Shown here: in pieces, positions 17,704 to 34,874 of the stretch
Layout: each line of letters begins with the position of its first letter
How positions within the stretch are numbered: position 1 is the first letter of the stretch
IMG/VR virus record: IMGVR_UViG_3300025276_000092
Coordinates: 1 to 34,874 of that record
Strand: one strand, 5' to 3'
Length of the DNA: 34,874 nt
From: a virus
The notes under the pieces: model-generated
Databases searched by the model: none
Seen by the model: only the letters and a program-made list of their open reading frames with translations
Told to the model about the DNA's origin: nothing
Position numbers and translations under genes: made by a program

Positions 17704-20070
17704 TTAACTTCCACACATTAGACAATCATCATCATCTTGAGCATCTCTACCAGCTTGAATCATCGCCTTAAAGTCTTTAGGATCAATAGGTTTTTCTACA
17801 ACCTTACTCTTCTCGACTGTAAATTTAATAGCATTCACTGCTGGTTTACTTCTTAAATAATAAATTCCAGTTTTCAATTCTTTACCCCATCCATACATAT
17901 GCATAGATGAAAGTTTAGCAAAGTTTGGATCTGCCATAAACAAATTCATAGACTGACTTTGACACACAAACCTCTGTCTATCCGCAGCTTGGTCTATCAA
18001 TACCTTTTGAGATAATTCATAAGACGTCTTATAAATGTCTTTAATGTATCCTGGTATCGCCATGTCTTGAACACTTCCGTTATTAGCCTTTAATTGATTA
18101 ATAATATCTGGAGTCCACAAACCCTTTTCCTCTAAATCCTTTACCAAGTGTTTGTTTAAAACTATAAACTCACCACCTATAGTCCTCCTAGTATACATAT
18201 TAGACGTAAATGGCTCGAAGCATTCATTGTTACCTAATATTTGAGACGTACTTGCTGTAGGCATTAATGCAACTAATAATGAATTCCTTAATCCATTAGT
18301 CACCACTTCCTTCTTTAGCTCGTCCCATGGTAACTTTAAATTACTACTTAACTCTGTCTTCGTCTTATACATGTCGAATTGGAATATGCCATTAGATGCT
18401 GGACTACCATTAAAAGTACTATAAACACCTTTCTCAATAGATAACTCCATTGATCTTTTCATTGCTGAAAAGTATATCTGTTCAAATATCATTTTGTTAA
18501 TCATAGATGCCCCTTGAGAATCAAAAGGTAACTTCATCATAGCATAAGTATCTGCAAGTCCTTGAACTCCCATACCTACTGGTCTATGTCTTGAGTTACT
18601 TTTCTTAGTCTCATCTGTTGGATAGTAATTTGCATCAATCACATTATCCAAGTTCTCAACAACTACCTCTACAACCTCTCCTAACTTTTCAAAGTCATAA
18701 CCAAACTTAACCATAGGGTTAACAAACTTGTTTAAAGCTATAGACGCTAGATTACAAACTGCTTGTTCATCCTCGCTAGTATACTCTATTATCTCTGCAC
18801 ATAAATTAGATGACTTAATGACGCCTAAGTTCTTTTGATTAGATGCTAAGTTTGCTCTATCTTTATAAACCATATAAGGAGTTCCCGTCTCTGTTTGTGA
18901 CACCAAAACTTTCTCCCATAATTCTCTAGCCTTAACTTTAGCTCTTCCTATTCCTGCCTCTTCTAGCTTCTCATAAGCATCCTTAAAGTCATCTCCAACT
19001 AATTCTTGTAATATTGTACCATTGTAATTTTTAACCTCGTTAGGACAAAACAATGTCCAATACCCATCATTCTTAATTCTCTCCATCAATAAATCATTCA
19101 TCCATAATGCATAGAACAAGTCTCTTGCTCTCATCTCTTCTTTTCCATGATTTTTTTTCATCTCTAAAAAGTCAAAGATGTCGGAATGCCAAGGTTCTAA
19201 GTACATAGCGAATGAGCCTTTTCTTTTACCACCTTGATTAATCCATCTAGCTGTCTCGTTAAATGTCTTAAACATAGGAATAAGACCATCTGCCTTTCCA
19301 TTCGTACCTTTTATCAAACTACCTTTTGCTCTAACATTGTGAACGTTTAATCCAATACCTCCAGCTAGTTTAGAAATCCTAGCACAATCTTTTAAAGTAT
19401 CAAACAACCCATCAATATCATCACCCTTTGTGGCTAATAAAAAACAACTACTCAATTGAGAAAGTTTAGTTCCCGAATTAAAAAGCGTTGGCGTAGCATG
19501 AGTATAATAACCCTCGCTCAATAAGTTATAAGTCTTAGCTAACATATTAAAGTCACCAAATCCTGTAACTTCTATAGCACATCTTAACCACATGTATTGA
19601 GGTCTTTCAACTATTTCACCATCACCACCCTTTAACAAATAACTTCTCTCTAAAGTCTTCAATCCAAATATGTCATGATTAAAGTCCCTATCTTGTACTA
19701 TAATAGAATCCAAAACACTAGCGTTTGATTCTACATATTTAATAAACTCATCACCTAGTTGGTCTGTTTCTTTTTTTAACTTCTCCACACTACTAGAAAA
19801 CGTACTAGGGGTATCTTTTCTTAAACTACTTACAAATAACCTAGACGCTAATGTAGAATAGTCTGGGTGATTAATGATCTTCATCGCTGCACCCTCTACA
19901 CATAACGTATCTAATTCTCTTGATGTTATACCATCCATCATTTGAGCTATTATTCCAATACTCAACTTATCTGCTTCAACCTTTAGACCATTAGATTGGT
20001 CTTTTATTCTTTTAGTAATCTTACTAGGGTTAAAATTAACCTCTCTGCCATTCCTCTTTCTTACTCTCAT
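17704..20070 (-). CDS. nrdA: ribonucleoside-diphosphate reductase, large (R1) subunit, class Ia
   Basis: Reduces NDPs to dNDPs with R2. 788 aa, complete. An N-terminal ATP-cone (MRVRKRNGREVNFNPSKIT) carries the overall activity site. C209 (SSCF) and C439 (VCNLASI) are the active-site disulfide pair, with N422, C424 (thiyl radical) and E426 in NLCAEI. The protein ends DCLMCGS, the C-terminal redox pair that regenerates the active site. The sequence is strikingly close to eukaryotic R1, including that ending. The R2 gene lies 10 kb away rather than adjacent. It follows RNase H by 3 nt. Confidence 0.97.
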   Translation of the reverse strand: MRVRKRNGREVNFNPSKITKRIKDQSNGLKVEADKLSIGIIAQMMDGITSRELDTLCVEGAAMKIINHPDYSTLASRLFVSSLRKDTPSTFSSSVEKLKKETDQLGDEFIKYVESNASVLDSIIVQDRDFNHDIFGLKTLERSYLLKGGDGEIVERPQYMWLRCAIEVTGFGDFNMLAKTYNLLSEGYYTHATPTLFNSGTKLSQLSSCFLLATKGDDIDGLFDTLKDCARISKLAGGIGLNVHNVRAKGSLIKGTNGKADGLIPMFKTFNETARWINQGGKRKGSFAMYLEPWHSDIFDFLEMKKNHGKEEMRARDLFYALWMNDLLMERIKNDGYWTLFCPNEVKNYNGTILQELVGDDFKDAYEKLEEAGIGRAKVKARELWEKVLVSQTETGTPYMVYKDRANLASNQKNLGVIKSSNLCAEIIEYTSEDEQAVCNLASIALNKFVNPMVKFGYDFEKLGEVVEVVVENLDNVIDANYYPTDETKKSNSRHRPVGMGVQGLADTYAMMKLPFDSQGASMINKMIFEQIYFSAMKRSMELSIEKGVYSTFNGSPASNGIFQFDMYKTKTELSSNLKLPWDELKKEVVTNGLRNSLLVALMPTASTSQILGNNECFEPFTSNMYTRRTIGGEFIVLNKHLVKDLEEKGLWTPDIINQLKANNGSVQDMAIPGYIKDIYKTSYELSQKVLIDQAADRQRFVCQSQSMNLFMADPNFAKLSSMHMYGWGKELKTGIYYLRSKPAVNAIKFTVEKSKVVEKPIDPKDFKAMIQAGRDAQDDDDCLMCGS

Positions 20071-26157: not shown

Positions 26158-26176
26158 ATGTATTTTATTTCATTAG

Positions 26177-26251
26177 TTGACAAGGTGGGATTCGAACCCA
26201 CACTCTCTCAAGAGTTACCCCTTGAGCGTTTTACCCTTAAACTACCTGTCA
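26177..26251 (-). tRNA. tRNA-like gene with noncanonical anticodon arm
   Basis: Minus strand gives acceptor TGACAGG pairing with CTTGTCA (7 bp, one G-U) and discriminator A, followed by TA, a D-arm GTTT-AAGGGTA-AAAC, and a perfect T-arm GTGGG-TTCGAAT-CCCAC. The anticodon arm is abnormal: CTCAAG and CTTGAG form 6 bp around an 8-nt loop GGGTAACT (or 5 bp around 10 nt), instead of 5 bp with 7 nt. The U is not in normal position 33, so no standard anticodon can be assigned with confidence (UAA or AAC are candidates). It lies 19 nt past the sbcC start, between protein genes. CCA is not encoded. Confidence 0.75.
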
Positions 26252-30105: not shown

Positions 30106-31071
30106 TTAAAATTCCTCGTCAAAACTTATAGCTCCATTACCTCCAGACTTTACTCCGGCTTTTTGATATTCTGAAACTCTCTTTTCAAAGAAATTTGTCT
30201 TACCTTCTAAACTTATCATTTCCATAAAGTCAAAAGGGTTCTTTGTGTTATACTCTTTATCACAATTAAACTCCATGAGTAACCTATCTGTAACAAACTC
30301 TAAATATTGAGTCATCAGGTTTGAATTCATACCAATTAAACTAACTGGTAAAGACTCTGTAATAAATTCCCTCTCTATGTCTAACGCTTCTACAATTATT
30401 TCCTTAATTCTACTCTTTGGAACCTTGTTAACAATATGATTATTGTGCAAATGTACTGCAAAATCACAATGCATACCCTCATCTCTTGAAATCAATTCAT
30501 TAGAGAAAGTAAGTCCTGGTAACAATCCTCTCTTTTTTAACCAAAAGATAGAACAAAATGCTCCCGAGAAGAAAATACCCTCAACTGCTGCAAACGCTAT
30601 TAGCCTCTCTGCGAACGAGTCTGAATCAATCCACTTTAATGCCCAATCAGCTTTTTTCTTAATCGCTGAGAACGTCTCTATTGCGTTAAACAACCTATCC
30701 TTCTCTTGCTCATCCTTAACGTAAGTATCTATAAGTAAAGAATACGTTTCCGAGTGTATATTCTCCATCATGATTTGAAAACCATAAAAGAACTTAGCCT
30801 CACTATATTGAACCTCATTAACAAAGTTCTCTGCTAGATTCTCATTAACTATACCATCAGACGCTGCAAAGAAAGCTAAAATGTGTTTGATAAAATATCT
30901 CTCATTCTCACTTAACTTATTGTTCCAATCGTTTATGTCTTCTGACAAGTCAATCTCTTCTGCTGTCCATATGCAAGCCTGTTGCTTTTTGTACCAATCC
31001 CATAGATCACTATGCTCTATTGGGAATATTACAAATCTATTATCATTTGGTTGTAAAATTGGTTCTATCAT
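30106..31071 (-). CDS. nrdB: ribonucleotide reductase small (R2) subunit, class Ia
   Basis: Generates the tyrosyl radical for R1. 321 aa, complete. Di-iron ligands and radical Tyr are all present: D72 ([10 protein letters not shown]), E103, H106 and Y110 (MENIHSETY), E164 ([10 protein letters not shown]), E198 and H201 ([10 protein letters not shown]). The C-terminal peptide (GAISFDEEF) is of the type that docks into R1. Over long stretches it reads like eukaryotic R2 (for example [13 protein letters not shown]). Separated from nrdA by about 10 kb and linked instead to the UvsY-like and TS-like genes. Confidence 0.97.
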
Positions 31072-31074
31072 ATA

Positions 31075-31608
31075 TTATTTTTGTATTAAAATTCCATTAA
31101 TCTTTCCTTCTATCATTTCACTAACAAACTCACTAGGAGTTACTCCATTAACTAATGTGTTTAATTTTCTACTCTTATCTTGACATGCCCAATACAAACT
31201 ACTTAATGAATTGAAGTTCTTCTCTGCCGTAATAAACGACCTCTTTAACTCTATCCATTTTTCATCAGTCTCAAAACAAGTCTCTAAAGCCTTTTCAGTA
31301 GCCTTAATTTTAACATCATCATTACCTATCCTAATGGTATAGAATCCTGCATTGTTAGCAGCTTGTTTTCTTAACTTAGCTCTAAATTGACCCTCATAGA
31401 TTTTGTAATCTAATTTAGTCTCACCAACCAAAGCTTCAACCTCTGCCTTTATTAACCCAATTCTATTAACTGCTGCTGATATCGTCACCGCGTCTCCATA
31501 GATATTACCTACATCTATCTTAGTTAGGTCATCAACGTTAATTGATGAATCCATATTGTCGTGATATAACGTTATCTCTTGACCTCCTACATTTATTTTA
31601 TACTCCAT
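31075..31608 (-). CDS. possible UvsY-like recombination mediator
   Basis: A 177-aa, mostly helical protein. An N-terminal beta portion (YKINVGGQEITLYHD) is followed by a helix-rich region whose spacing resembles T4 UvsY: KAEVEALVGETKLDYKIYEG, then KATEKALETCFETDEKW, ending SLYWACQDKSRKLNTLVNG. In UvsY the corresponding final helices carry a Tyr-Trp and a basic patch that binds ssDNA and recruits UvsX. A mediator would complete the set RecA, SSB, SbcC, SbcD here. The match is by pattern only, so an unrelated role in nucleotide metabolism (both neighbours) is possible. Confidence 0.4.
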   Translation of the reverse strand: MEYKINVGGQEITLYHDNMDSSINVDDLTKIDVGNIYGDAVTISAAVNRIGLIKAEVEALVGETKLDYKIYEGQFRAKLRKQAANNAGFYTIRIGNDDVKIKATEKALETCFETDEKWIELKRSFITAEKNFNSLSSLYWACQDKSRKLNTLVNGVTPSEFVSEMIEGKINGILIQK

Positions 31609-31609
31609 A

Positions 31610-32284
31610 TTAATTCTTGTTTAAGTGTCTTTCATACAAGTGGAAATTAGAGGCAAAGTGATAATACCAACCAACTTCAATACCTAATCTATCTGCAACC
31701 ATTTTTTGTAACATTGAGAAACAAAACTGGTCATTACAGAAACCAAACCATAAATCGTTTGATCTCATATTTACGCTCATACATAACTTATTGTTTACAA
31801 TTTGAAAATGTATTGAACTAGTACATGGTGTATCATATTCATAAGTATCAATCTCTTTACCATCATATATTGATAACAATGCTTGTCTAGTGTTTTTATC
31901 ACCACGTAACTTATCTATAATTCTATCTAATTGAGAACCTCTATCCCATTGCCAACCGTAATTAGATCTTACATTACCTTCTTTATCCATATGGTTTTTC
32001 CATATAGGCGCATGTTTAGATATTTCTTCACCATTAGGGTCTCCTGATAAATACCAGTCCCATTCTCTAACTGCGTATTTATTACTCCACTTTCTAAATG
32101 GTGTATTTATTAAATTATCCATTGGTCTCTCTAAATAAAAACCTACGTTGTACAATGTTTTTGTACCACTCCTTAAACCACCGAAAGAATATTTGTTTAC
32201 AGCCTTGTAATAATATTCAAAAGCATCTTGTGCGTTACCAAACGATGGTCCATTTATAAAACTTATCTCTTCATCTCTACTCAT
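31610..32284 (-). CDS. thymidylate synthase-family pyrimidine (hydroxy)methylase
   Basis: A 224-aa ThyA-fold enzyme transferring a one-carbon unit from methylene-tetrahydrofolate to C5 of dUMP or dCMP. The catalytic Cys is C154 in DTPCTSSIHF; phosphate binding is R174-S in NMRSND; H215 and Y217 are in NFHLYERHL; NYGWQWDRGS and NTRQALL are other family motifs. At the position of E. coli Asn177, which reads the pyrimidine 4-oxygen, this protein has D185 (FGFCNDQF), as in T4 dCMP hydroxymethylase. The frame is open to an ATG at 32323, but the TACATTTG element at 32300-32307 lies inside that stretch, so the Met at 32284 is chosen. Methylase versus hydroxymethylase remains open. Confidence 0.85.
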   Translation of the reverse strand: MSRDEEISFINGPSFGNAQDAFEYYYKAVNKYSFGGLRSGTKTLYNVGFYLERPMDNLINTPFRKWSNKYAVREWDWYLSGDPNGEEISKHAPIWKNHMDKEGNVRSNYGWQWDRGSQLDRIIDKLRGDKNTRQALLSIYDGKEIDTYEYDTPCTSSIHFQIVNNKLCMSVNMRSNDLWFGFCNDQFCFSMLQKMVADRLGIEVGWYYHFASNFHLYERHLNKN

Positions 32285-32299
32285 TATATTTGTTTTTTG

Positions 32300-32330
32300 C
32301 AAATGTACAACTTTTTTGTACACTATTCTA
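32300..32330 (-). promoter_or_regulatory. promoter-like element P9 (TACATTTGCA)
   Basis: TACATTTG on the minus strand (32307-32300) fits TAnnTTTG and is preceded by an AT-rich region with no clear GTAGTT or TTG box. It lies 16 nt upstream of the chosen start of the TS-like gene and separates it from the PLP enzyme gene. Confidence 0.45.
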
Positions 32331-33236
32331 TTTGTTTAAATATTTATTAAAATCTTTTAAATCTCTCCAATCTCTATAAGAATCTACATCTTCCGGTTTA
32401 ACAGTGGTTCCTGGTGCATTACCAGCAACATTGAAAAACCAATCTCCAGGTAAACCATACCTATTCATGTAATCCCAACCTTTAGAATCGTAAGCGCTTT
32501 CACAATCAAACTCATTAGGTACATCATCCGACTGTTGATTAAAAGCTTTATGATAACTCATAAAATTTGCTCTTCCTAAATCACCTTGTTGTATATTTCT
32601 AGATACAGCAACGTTAAAAAACTCAGTATTTGGCAATGCTATTTGTAAAGTTCTAGTTAACACACCTGTAGAAATAACAGACCACATTCTCTTTGGATGC
32701 TCTCTATTCTTAAAGTACTCATGCACTATTCTAACTCCCATTCCTACTACCATTTCGTGATTTAATCCTAACGGTACAAAATATGCTCCAGTAGCTTTTG
32801 CATACTTTTGAGCCATTGAGTTTGCATTAGGCATTGCGGCTACTCTTAAGAATAACGGCTTTGCTCCATACTCGATACATAACCTTTGGTGAGGGGAACT
32901 CTCTTTAGAAGCTGGCATAACCAACGTTAAGGCTATATCGTACTTTTTACAAAGATAAGATAAACTTATTCCAGCAAATCCTTTTCTAGGTTGTACATAT
33001 ACCACCTCAGTAACTCCTCTCTTTTTTAGCGTGTCCATTAGGAATTCTCCAGCTCTTGCTTTATAACCTACCTCACACGCTTGTGACTCATCTATAATAT
33101 TAAATCCATTAGATTGAATTACTTTAAAATCTTCAAAGGTACTTTTAAAACCTTCAGTCATCTTTAAGTAATATTCCAAATCTTTTTCACCTCTTAGGTC
33201 TTTATTATCTAACCCATCTTGTTTGTTTATAAACAT
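32328..33236 (-). CDS. fold-type-II PLP-dependent enzyme
   Basis: A 302-aa protein with the layout of the tryptophan synthase beta/cysteine synthase/ACC deaminase fold. K59 in EVGYKARAGEF is the expected PLP-binding Lys. It is followed by a Rossmann half VVYVQPRKGFAGISLSYLC, the typical LTLVMPASKE strand and EYGAKPLFL, as in (v.vP...s..k......Ga). The later STGVLTRTLQIA (189-200) fits the phosphate loop. It lies 4 nt from a protein resembling DNA-hypermodification proteins and just upstream of the TS-like gene. PLP enzymes tailor amino-acid-decorated thymines in some phages; a similar role is inferred. Substrate unknown. Confidence 0.65.
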   Translation of the reverse strand: MFINKQDGLDNKDLRGEKDLEYYLKMTEGFKSTFEDFKVIQSNGFNIIDESQACEVGYKARAGEFLMDTLKKRGVTEVVYVQPRKGFAGISLSYLCKKYDIALTLVMPASKESSPHQRLCIEYGAKPLFLRVAAMPNANSMAQKYAKATGAYFVPLGLNHEMVVGMGVRIVHEYFKNREHPKRMWSVISTGVLTRTLQIALPNTEFFNVAVSRNIQQGDLGRANFMSYHKAFNQQSDDVPNEFDCESAYDSKGWDYMNRYGLPGDWFFNVAGNAPGTTVKPEDVDSYRDWRDLKDFNKYLNK

Positions 33237-33239
33237 ATT

Positions 33240-34151
33240 TTATTTCTTTATATTATTCTTATATACTATACCTTTGTTATATTCAATATGTTCTGGCGAT
33301 TGGAACTCTTCAATATACCTTATGAAGTCGCAAGAAACATCTTCCATATCCATTGGGTTAGACACGTTGTGTGTCATATCACAGAGGTAACGTAAGGCAG
33401 CATCGTGCTTCATCTTTGGTAATATAAGTTTTAAACATTTCTTTGCGTTAGAACCTACGTATACATCAGATGTTGGGTCTACCAATTCAGGGAAATACTC
33501 AGCCATATCCATTGCGAATGCTGTTAATACAAAATTTTGCCTTTTAAAACCATTAGCTCTTAGGTAATCATTACCATAATCTACTACGTCTTTAATTCCC
33601 TTAATGCTTCCACTTAACAAATAATCATTTAAGTAATCCATTAAAGAATCCGCATCGTTCTGAACAAAGTTGTATAAACCACCTTTAATCATAGGTAACA
33701 AATAACCCTTAACATCACAAAAAACCTTAGTTGGCATACTTTCTTTCCACTCTTGTTTAGTAAACCTACCCTGTTGTAAATCTTCTACAATCCAAAAGTT
33801 ACCAAAACCGTGAGTTCCAAAAGGTTCATCCTGACCGACTTTTTTAGGCTTATAATTAATACCTGATCCGCACAGTCTAAACATATAACACAAATACATG
33901 AAATCTCTTTTTGATATTTTATTATACATGTCATCAAAGTATAAACCGTTTCCTTTGCAATCTTCTTTACCCTTAACAACGGCTTCTACAAAACTACTAA
34001 AAGCTGCGTATCTCCTATTGACTACGTCATATATAGGAATATTCCAAACTAGGTCGTCATTAACCTGTTCCTCTGTCCAATTAATGCCTTGAAACTTTGT
34101 CTCTTGCATCTTTTTTGCTTTATAATAATAATCTGTAAACTGGTCTAACAT
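33240..34151 (-). CDS. DNA-hypermodification protein, HMUDK_hel/aGPT-Pplase-like
   Basis: A 303-aa helical protein. Its order of motifs resembles the helical, HhH-glycosylase-related proteins of phage thymine hypermodification (5-hmdU DNA kinase helical domain; alpha-glutamyl/putrescinyl-thymine pyrophosphorylase clades). These are GINWTEEQVNDDLVW followed by VNRRYAAFSSFV (22-54), YMFRLCGSGINYKP (89-102), FGTHGFGNFWIVEDL (111-125), and NFVLTAFAMDMAEYFPEL followed by VYVGSNAKKCLKLI (206-243). The last looks like a variant of the glycosylase-type G-P-G-A helix-hairpin segment. No P-loop kinase domain is attached. It lies 1 nt from the SGNH gene and 3 nt from the PLP gene, so all three are co-translated. 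Family call is by pattern. Confidence 0.55.
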   Translation of the reverse strand: MLDQFTDYYYKAKKMQETKFQGINWTEEQVNDDLVWNIPIYDVVNRRYAAFSSFVEAVVKGKEDCKGNGLYFDDMYNKISKRDFMYLCYMFRLCGSGINYKPKKVGQDEPFGTHGFGNFWIVEDLQQGRFTKQEWKESMPTKVFCDVKGYLLPMIKGGLYNFVQNDADSLMDYLNDYLLSGSIKGIKDVVDYGNDYLRANGFKRQNFVLTAFAMDMAEYFPELVDPTSDVYVGSNAKKCLKLILPKMKHDAALRYLCDMTHNVSNPMDMEDVSCDFIRYIEEFQSPEHIEYNKGIVYKNNIKK

Positions 34152-34152
34152 T

Positions 34153-34874
34153 TTAAAATAATTTTAATTCGTTTTTATTGGTGTAATCCATGTATGCATC
34201 AGGTCTTAAATGTACAGATTGTCTCGCTTCCATATTTTTAAAATCTAATTCTACATTGTAATCAAAATCCCAGCTTAAAATATCAAAACCGTTATTTTTA
34301 CACATTAACTCAAGTTCATTATTGTAGAAATTTACCGCTTCTTGTCTTTGCTCAAATGAACCATAGAAATTAAGTCCATCTAATTTACCAGTACCTGGTA
34401 ATTTTCTAGACTCATTCTCAATAGGAATCAACTTAACACAAGTAGTTTTTTGTAAATTAAGGTCTAACAACTGAGTCTCTAACCTACTAATAAGTTCTTT
34501 ACATTTATCTTCATAAGTACCCTCTCTCCTAGGATTAAAGATATGGAATCTCATATCTATATTTCCAGCGTAAAATATCAACTCTTTTGTACCCTCTGGT
34601 AAAAACGTATTAATACCTTTATTTAAAAAACCTCTTAAAGTCTTACCGTCATTCCTTGATATTGTATGACCCTTTTTAAATACAGAAATTGAGTGACTAT
34701 CTCCTAAAACAAGTTTATCAGACACCTTTAGTAAATCTAAATTCTTAGGCACCTCGAACTTAAAGTCGTAATCAACCAATTCTTTTCTCTTATTCATAAC
34801 GATGTTGTAATCCAACTCACCAGATAAAGAAATAACTCTACCATTATATTCACTTAACATCCTTAATCTATCTA
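34153..34874 (-). CDS. SGNH-hydrolase-like protein, start possibly outside the window
   Basis: At least 235 aa. It carries an SGNH-type set: LVLGDSHSISVF (nucleophile S55 in GDSH), FYAGNIDMRFHI (N100, block III), and SVHLRPDAYMDY (H217, block V), in the right order and spacing. Family members are esterases, lipases and acyl- or glycan-modifying hydrolases. Here it is at the head of the modification cluster, so acylation/deacylation or phosphoester chemistry on a modified base or its precursor is possible. The first ATG is at 34860, but the frame remains open upstream to the window edge (RLR before the Met), so it may be 5-prime truncated. Confidence 0.6.
   Translation of the reverse strand, partial: DRLRMLSEYNGRVISLSGELDYNIVMNKRKELVDYDFKFEVPKNLDLLKVSDKLVLGDSHSISVFKKGHTISRNDGKTLRGFLNKGINTFLPEGTKELIFYAGNIDMRFHIFNPRREGTYEDKCKELISRLETQLLDLNLQKTTCVKLIPIENESRKLPGTGKLDGLNFYGSFEQRQEAVNFYNNELELMCKNNGFDILSWDFDYNVELDFKNMEARQSVHLRPDAYMDYTNKNELKLF

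Follow-up and report, generated by a model that had tools for sequence, protein, structure and literature searches.

The DNA analysed here is IMG/VR virus record IMGVR_UViG_3300025276_000092, probably a fragment, whose full 34,874 bases we call the window, and the system in question is a run of genes at its right end. An earlier note on this DNA had described four adjacent genes with tiny gaps as a candidate operon for DNA base hypermodification. Four minus-strand open reading frames (ORFs) are present there, at 34153-34860, 33240-34151, 32328-33236 and 31610-32323, and are separated by 1, 3 and 4 nucleotides; the last gap becomes 43 nucleotides if ATG 32284 is the start of the fourth gene, a thymidylate synthase (TS)-like gene, as the family alignment favours. 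The four genes and the gene that follows them are:

34153 to 34874, minus strand: c3 gene, 3' part, with an SGNH-like domain; its 5' end lies beyond the window's right edge
33240 to 34151, minus strand: U303, an all-helical protein of 303 amino acids (aa) whose neighbours by fold are amino acid:DNA transferases (ADDTs)
32328 to 33236, minus strand: fold-type-II pyridoxal phosphate (PLP) enzyme with Lys59 (codon 33060-33062) as catalytic residue, homologous to M6 gp52
31610 to 32284, minus strand: TS-like protein, predicted deoxycytidine monophosphate (dCMP) 5-hydroxymethylase; likely start ATG 32284, the ORF being open from GTG 32323
31075 to 31608, minus strand: 177-aa protein, phrog_20212, 1 nucleotide downstream of the TS-like gene

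The SGNH ORF is incomplete, for its frame is open up to the window edge (34153-34872). In the relative L001, whose proteins are 93-96% identical to those of the window, the c3 gene is complete (318 aa, L001:1769-2725) and has about 80 further aa at the N-terminus, so the ATG at 34860 is internal. Upstream of c3 in L001 are a DUF6378 gene and a long ORF beyond it, which we take to be DNA polymerase III alpha by its looks. In L001 the continuation to the right, where the earlier note had suggested looking for a kinase gene among others, holds the rest of c3, DUF6378 and the long ORF; a thymine-type 5-hydroxymethyldeoxyuridine (5-hmdU) kinase was not found in c3 contigs (see below).

Relatives were gathered from viral contigs, U303 and the PLP protein serving as queries. 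U303 was found in 87 distinct viral contigs, 57 of which carry all of six genes in the order DUF6378, c3, U303, fold-type-II PLP enzyme, TS-like enzyme and MazG, the identities of DUF6378 and MazG coming from Pfam. The PLP gene is present in 85 of the 87, c3 in 83, DUF6378 in 80, the TS-like gene in 78 and MazG in 71; in the other contigs end genes are absent, often at a contig end, or MazG and the TS-like gene are swapped. Wherever the PLP gene is present it directly follows U303 (85/85), and c3, where present, directly precedes U303 (83/83). In a second, more divergent sample, all 38 PLP loci that were flanked left and right by 3 kb or more had c3 and U303 within 4 kb, even with shuffled gene order. 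Such a gene set is far beyond chance, and the four genes of the window are real members of a conserved six-gene cassette. The possibility that the SGNH gene is an accidental lysis or esterase gene was rejected on account of its 83/83 adjacency to U303 and the gene fusions described below. The window has no ORF of the cassette's MazG cluster; the 177-aa gene lies behind its TS-like gene, where most relatives have a MazG pyrophosphohydrolase gene. Some relatives hold additional genes between U303 and the PLP gene. In one divergent cassette there are two of 230 aa (L178:7080-8451), the second encoding a 2OG-Fe(II) oxygenase (PF13640), possibly for an extra tailoring step, and in many relatives the place is taken by n7 (290-380 aa; L192, L212, L223:2922-3926 and L307), a family distantly related to U303 (hhalign E 5.8e-7).

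The TS-like protein matches PF00303 (E 3.8e-28), and its profile matched, among solved structures, MilA, T4 dCMP hydroxymethylase and thymidylate synthases; the best single-sequence match in the PDB is MilA, a cytidine monophosphate (CMP) 5-hydroxymethylase. The nucleophile, Cys167, is invariant in the family, and Asp164, which corresponds to T4 Asp145 and stands three residues ahead of the cysteine, is present in 62 of 63 cassette sequences. An Asp or Glu at that place is the hydroxymethylase signature (PMC6400193). The match, the catalytic cysteine and the signature residue agree with the earlier view of the gene as a TS-family hydroxymethylase. Alignment to 1b49 equates Asp198 with T4 Asp179 and with position 177 of E. 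coli TS, the cytosine/uracil switch (PMC6400193; PMC8670742). Position 177 is Asp in 63/63 cassette sequences, versus Asn in 29/29 M6-type thymine-pathway sequences. Further, Ser188 and Arg146 align with Ala176 and Lys133 of MilA, and changing both of those positions switches MilA's substrate from CMP to dCMP (PMC5175136); a MilA-type ribonucleotide substrate was rejected on this ground. The nearest cultured relative of the TS-like protein is in Bacteroides phage BF486P2 (46% identity). By every residue that could be checked, the enzyme is strongly predicted to be a dCMP hydroxymethylase, and because it has Asp at 177 together with all the other dCMP-hydroxymethylase residues, the modified base is, on this prediction, cytosine. 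The earlier note had implied a thymine pathway, as in Pseudomonas phage M6 and Salmonella phage ViI, in which the TS homologue would make 5-hydroxymethyl-dUMP and other proteins would decorate 5-hmdU. That pathway would fit the homology of the PLP enzyme to M6 gp52 and the ADDT-like fold of U303, both described below, but all substrate determinants point to dCMP, the closest cultured TS relatives are annotated as dCMP hydroxymethylases and adjoin a carbamoyltransferase, and the 5-hmdU kinase and HMUDK_hel are absent from 23 cassette contigs; we consider it most improbable.

The predicted model of U303 is all-helical (mean pLDDT, the model's own per-residue confidence score, 86), and a Foldseek search of BFVD with it found an ADDT-named protein (E 3.6e-12, TM 0.78) and a second one (E 1.3e-4). 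Sequence searches of Pfam, PHROGs and the PDB gave no match, single-member PHROG or Pfam matches near E 0.01-0.1 being counted as chance, and searches of 50,697 records of cultured phages and of 84,980 genomes of bacteria and archaea likewise turned up no U303. Against the ADDT profile (PF18724) U303 stayed below the cut-off, and the HMUDK_hel profile (PF18723) had no match in the window or in 22 further cassette contigs. Profile-profile comparisons of U303 with ADDT and HMUDK_hel were not significant; hhalign gave E 0.013 and prob 3.4 when a wide profile of U303 was set against one of M6-type ADDTs. A fold search of the PDB gave weak matches only (E > 1), DNA glycosylases among them. The protein had been likened to HMUDK_hel and to aGPT-PPlase. 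The former likeness is replaced by that to ADDT-named proteins, its fold neighbours, and the latter found no support in Pfam and was confirmed by no tool. The fold likeness suggests, moderately to weakly, that U303 works like an ADDT, although we do not file it as an ADDT member; its predicted reaction is the attachment of a small molecule to the base at the 5-position.

The third protein scores 34.8 bits against Pfam PALP (PF00291; cut-off 35), matches a phage family named threonine dehydratase in a PHROG search, and has Lys59 aligned with Lys44, the Schiff-base lysine of the M. tuberculosis cysteine synthase CysK1. Lys59 is invariant in 73/73 and 76/76 sequences, and the earlier assignment as a fold-type-II PLP enzyme stands on this lysine and the PALP-level match. 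The enzyme is homologous to gp52 of Pseudomonas phage M6 (hhalign prob 97.7, E 1.4e-12), and in M6 gp51, the ADDT, lies directly upstream of gp52, mirroring the U303-PLP pair. The PLP enzymes of M6 and ViI reportedly decarboxylate amino acids already on thymine. Further PLP relatives are inserted in, or adjoin, ParB-linked DNA methyltransferases: in Erythrobacter phage R6L the relative sits within the ParB-DNA methyltransferase gp1 (L047:6753-9175), and in Microcystis phage Mae-JY30 (L052:3390-5708) the relative and the ParB-methyltransferase parts are separate neighbouring genes. That the PLP enzyme belongs to the pathway is moderately supported by these data; it may either act on DNA or make the free donor.

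For c3, Foldseek with the model of the truncated protein found GDSL-like lipases and esterases (E 5e-5). Its motifs are an invariant GDSHS, with Ser55 of the 235-aa ORF (codon 34696-34698), GNID, and His217 (codon 34210-34212). Across 127 c3 relatives the SGNH residues are conserved as Ser in 127/127, His in 127/127, Gly in 126/127 and Asn in 113/127, and with the Foldseek matches they substantiate the SGNH fold noted earlier for the first protein. Residues of about 1-100 of full-length c3 resemble residues 1-100 of T4 beta-glucosyltransferase (BGT, gene b-gt), with hhalign prob 87.8 and E 3.3e-6. Six c3 members touch the Pfam BGT model, and the two examined fall below its cut-off. Compared with the two GT-B domains of T4 BGT, an N-terminal one and a C-terminal one that binds UDP-glucose, c3 is alike in the N-terminal one only, the remainder being SGNH-like. 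A scan found at least 584 c3 relatives, among them proteins of Aeromonas, Stenotrophomonas and Tenacibaculum phages that bear the annotation 'hypothetical'; Aeromonas phage 44RR is one of the cultured carriers of c3.

The T4 gene order is 41-40-uvsX-segA-b-gt-42. In 14 T4-like contigs the c3/U303/PLP trio lies, in either of two orders, between a gp42-type TS gene and uvsX, and so occupies the b-gt site, since this is where T4 has b-gt. A TS homologue is present in nine of the 13 larger c3 contigs searched, and in each of the nine there is an Asp-type dCMP hydroxymethylase; Asp-type TS also occurs in the cultured c3 phages Aeromonas 31, avDM9-HANS and phiAS4, Stenotrophomonas IME13 and Tenacibaculum PTm1. 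The Asp-type TS of these contigs and phages, together with the b-gt locus position, ties c3 to 5-hydroxymethylcytosine (5hmC) independently of the window's cassette. The b-gt locus also bears on whether the cassette's product might instead be a free small molecule, such as a modified nucleotide or nucleoside of the kind that MilA makes on the way to mildiomycin. MilA is the best single-sequence PDB match of the TS-like protein, and PLP and SGNH enzymes are found in small-molecule pathways; but Ser and Arg replace the two residues to which MilA owes its preference for CMP, the trio sits at the b-gt locus, c3 has its BGT-like N-terminus, and PLP relatives occur in M6 and at ParB-methylases. We regard a free product as very unlikely.

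Among 157 further loci, two near-exclusive modules were seen, c3 with U303 and PLP (84 loci) and c3 with myo-inositol-1-phosphate synthase (53 loci). In 38 of the 53 a protein X is present as well, and one locus combines X with both PLP and inositol-phosphate synthase. X truly belongs to the HMUDK_hel family, scoring above the Pfam cut-off in 4/4 contigs tested. The sister module has the order DUF6378, c3, inositol-phosphate synthase (PF01658), HAD-like protein, FkbM methyltransferase and X; the small HAD-like protein has no Pfam hit and is presumptively named by us. The module occurs in about 50 viral contigs (L251-L324), some longer than 90 kb, for example:

L279:7060-8247: inositol-phosphate synthase
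L278:9419-10612: HMUDK_hel

By its gene content the sister module suggests an inositol-decorated cytosine, of which we know no description.

HMUDK_hel has a P-loop kinase as its partner in the known thymine systems, and M6 carries both. The 5-hmdU kinase (PF18748) was found in none of 23 + 26 c3 contigs, several of them longer than 90 kb, while the M6 and ViI controls were detected; the kinase absence remarked on earlier therefore extends to 49 c3 contigs. Because the kinase is absent from c3 contigs and HMUDK_hel is present with c3, c3 appears to sit in the kinase's place beside the helical protein, and we infer that it replaces the kinase, turning the 5hmC hydroxyl into a leaving group. Gene fusions join the same partners. 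The c3 protein of the Aeromonas biquartaviruses is fused to HMUDK_hel, the C-terminal half of the protein in Aeromonas phages 31 and avDM9-HANS being of the same family as X (E 1e-88); the fusion's own HMUDK_hel match (E 2e-4 to 4e-3) is below the cut-off and was confirmed via the X family. A natural c3-U303 fusion occurs in L287. Ahead of the c3-HMUDK_hel fusion, phage 31 (L045:4420-8400) has a sodium:solute symporter gene (PF00474), odd for a phage, which could import a modification substrate. In Tulanevirus phages (phiAS4, L049:763-4032; IME13, L051) c3 follows UDP-galactopyranose mutase and an unassigned 358-aa gene, between motA and nrdC.10, a neighbourhood that would fit a galactofuranose-linked modification.

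Conserved gene order, dCMP-hydroxymethylase residues and co-occurrence all favour the base-hypermodification cassette proposed in the earlier note. The cassette very probably makes hydroxymethylcytosine and then adds a chemical group to it in the virus DNA, and there is a good probability that the DNA of the phage itself thereby acquires hypermodified cytosine, by the following five steps. First, the TS-like enzyme would convert dCMP to 5-hydroxymethyl-dCMP, a step strongly supported by its residues, and the MazG and DUF6378 proteins of most relatives probably clear competing nucleotides, like the T4 dCTPase. Second, by the T4 parallel, 5hmC would be incorporated into DNA. Third, c3 would bind flipped 5hmC through its BGT-like N-terminal domain and act on the hydroxyl (moderate support), the chemistry most likely being acylation or another activation that takes the place of phosphorylation in the thymine pathway. 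Fourth, and with moderate to weak support, U303 would join the 5-methylene to a small nucleophile, which is probably an amino acid. Fifth, the PLP enzyme may make or tailor that amino acid. Synteny, fusions and co-occurrence speak for joint action of c3, U303 and PLP on 5hmC; what precisely happens chemically in their steps we infer.

Within the 5hmC frame the main rival is that c3 is the final O-acyltransferase, giving a 5hmC ester, with U303 and PLP supplying or recognising the acyl group, e.g., an amino acid. O-acyltransferases are among the SGNH enzymes, and c3 is common to all the modules, whether its neighbours are U303 and PLP, inositol genes or UDP-galactopyranose mutase. However, U303 and HMUDK_hel belong, or are likened, to families acting on the base in DNA, and c3-U303 fusions suggest two successive DNA steps; we hold an ester product to be rather unlikely. 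Several points weigh against the five-step scheme itself. By sequence U303 matches neither ADDT nor HMUDK_hel significantly, and its activity is read from one AlphaFold model and automatic UniProt names. In c3, Asn183 is replaced by Ser in 14/127 relatives, the classical DxxH acid is missing (Gln in 66/71, Lys or Arg in the remainder), and the model of the truncated protein is of low confidence around the His. The BGT likeness spans about 100 residues, was obtained against a single BGT sequence and is below the Pfam cut-off, and a search of the PDB returned no hit for it. The PLP enzyme's product could be a free metabolite, with no action on DNA, and the modified base is a prediction from the gene content. 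More broadly, we tentatively suggest a kinase-free, combinatorial decoration of 5hmC, in which c3, BGT-like and SGNH in one, would activate the base, and swappable modules would attach amino-acid-derived groups (U303 and PLP), inositol (inositol-phosphate synthase, HAD-like protein and HMUDK_hel) or other groups.

Elsewhere in the window are genes for nucleotide supply and an unusual tRNA gene:

30106 to 31071, minus strand: ribonucleotide reductase beta subunit, context for nucleotide supply
17704 to 20070: ribonucleotide reductase alpha subunit
26176 to 26251, minus strand: tRNA called by ARAGORN with a four-base anticodon (gtaa) in a visible eight-base anticodon loop, possibly a frameshift suppressor or a decayed gene

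To our knowledge this gene combination is not known from any studied phage, and we know of amino-acid-type hypermodification by a TS homologue and a DNA transferase for thymine only, where a kinase is needed. The combination of an SGNH-type c3 with a helical transferase, a PLP enzyme and a TS-like enzyme is, as first noted, unlike the characterised thymine pathways. A literature search found no description of c3 or of the gene set, though the key thymine papers and preprints were outside the search and priority is not certain. The cassette supplies candidate enzymes with which new 5hmC chemistry can be tested, it points to a likely role for c3 genes that are listed as hypothetical in T4-like phages of Aeromonas, and cassette-bearing phages are predicted to resist restriction and CRISPR.

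Known cytosine modifications include glucosylated 5hmC, 5-carbamoyloxymethylcytosine (PMC8670742) and 5-carboxymethylcytosine with a glycine amide (PMC12783734). The last, made by CmoA/CmoX/CmoY in a marine phage, shares amino-acid decoration of the cytosine 5-position, but uses a carboxy-S-adenosylmethionine (Cx-SAM) methyltransferase and an ATP-dependent ligase and no TS homologue (PMC12783734). The 5-carbamoyloxymethylcytosine pathway found by MetaGPA (PMC8670742; phage BF486P2) shares a TS-like enzyme with Asp177 and co-occurring PRA-PH/MazG-type domains; there a carbamoyltransferase does the decorating, whereas the cassette has none. Glucosylation of 5hmC in T4 shares the dCMP hydroxymethylase, the 42-uvsX locus of T4-like relatives and the BGT-like c3 N-terminus, and the T4 dCTPase is comparable in role to the cassette's MazG-type pyrophosphohydrolase; unlike T4, the cassette has an SGNH domain in c3 where BGT has its sugar-nucleotide domain, has an extra transferase and PLP enzyme, and is without a glycosyltransferase. 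The M6/ViI thymine system, composed of a TS homologue, 5-hmdU kinase, HMUDK_hel, ADDT and PLP enzyme, shares a TS-family hydroxymethylase, a transferase gene followed by a homologous fold-type-II PLP gene (M6 gp51-gp52) and a setting in phage DNA metabolism. The cassette differs from it in having a cytosine-type Asp177 where theirs is Asn, in lacking the kinase, HMUDK_hel and a radical-SAM gene, in placing U303 outside the ADDT profile, and in adding c3 and DUF6378. In sum, if the proposed scheme is true, the cassette would be the cytosine counterpart of thymine amino-acid hypermodification, with a different activating step; many uncultured viral contigs carry it, and T4-like relatives have it at the b-gt locus.

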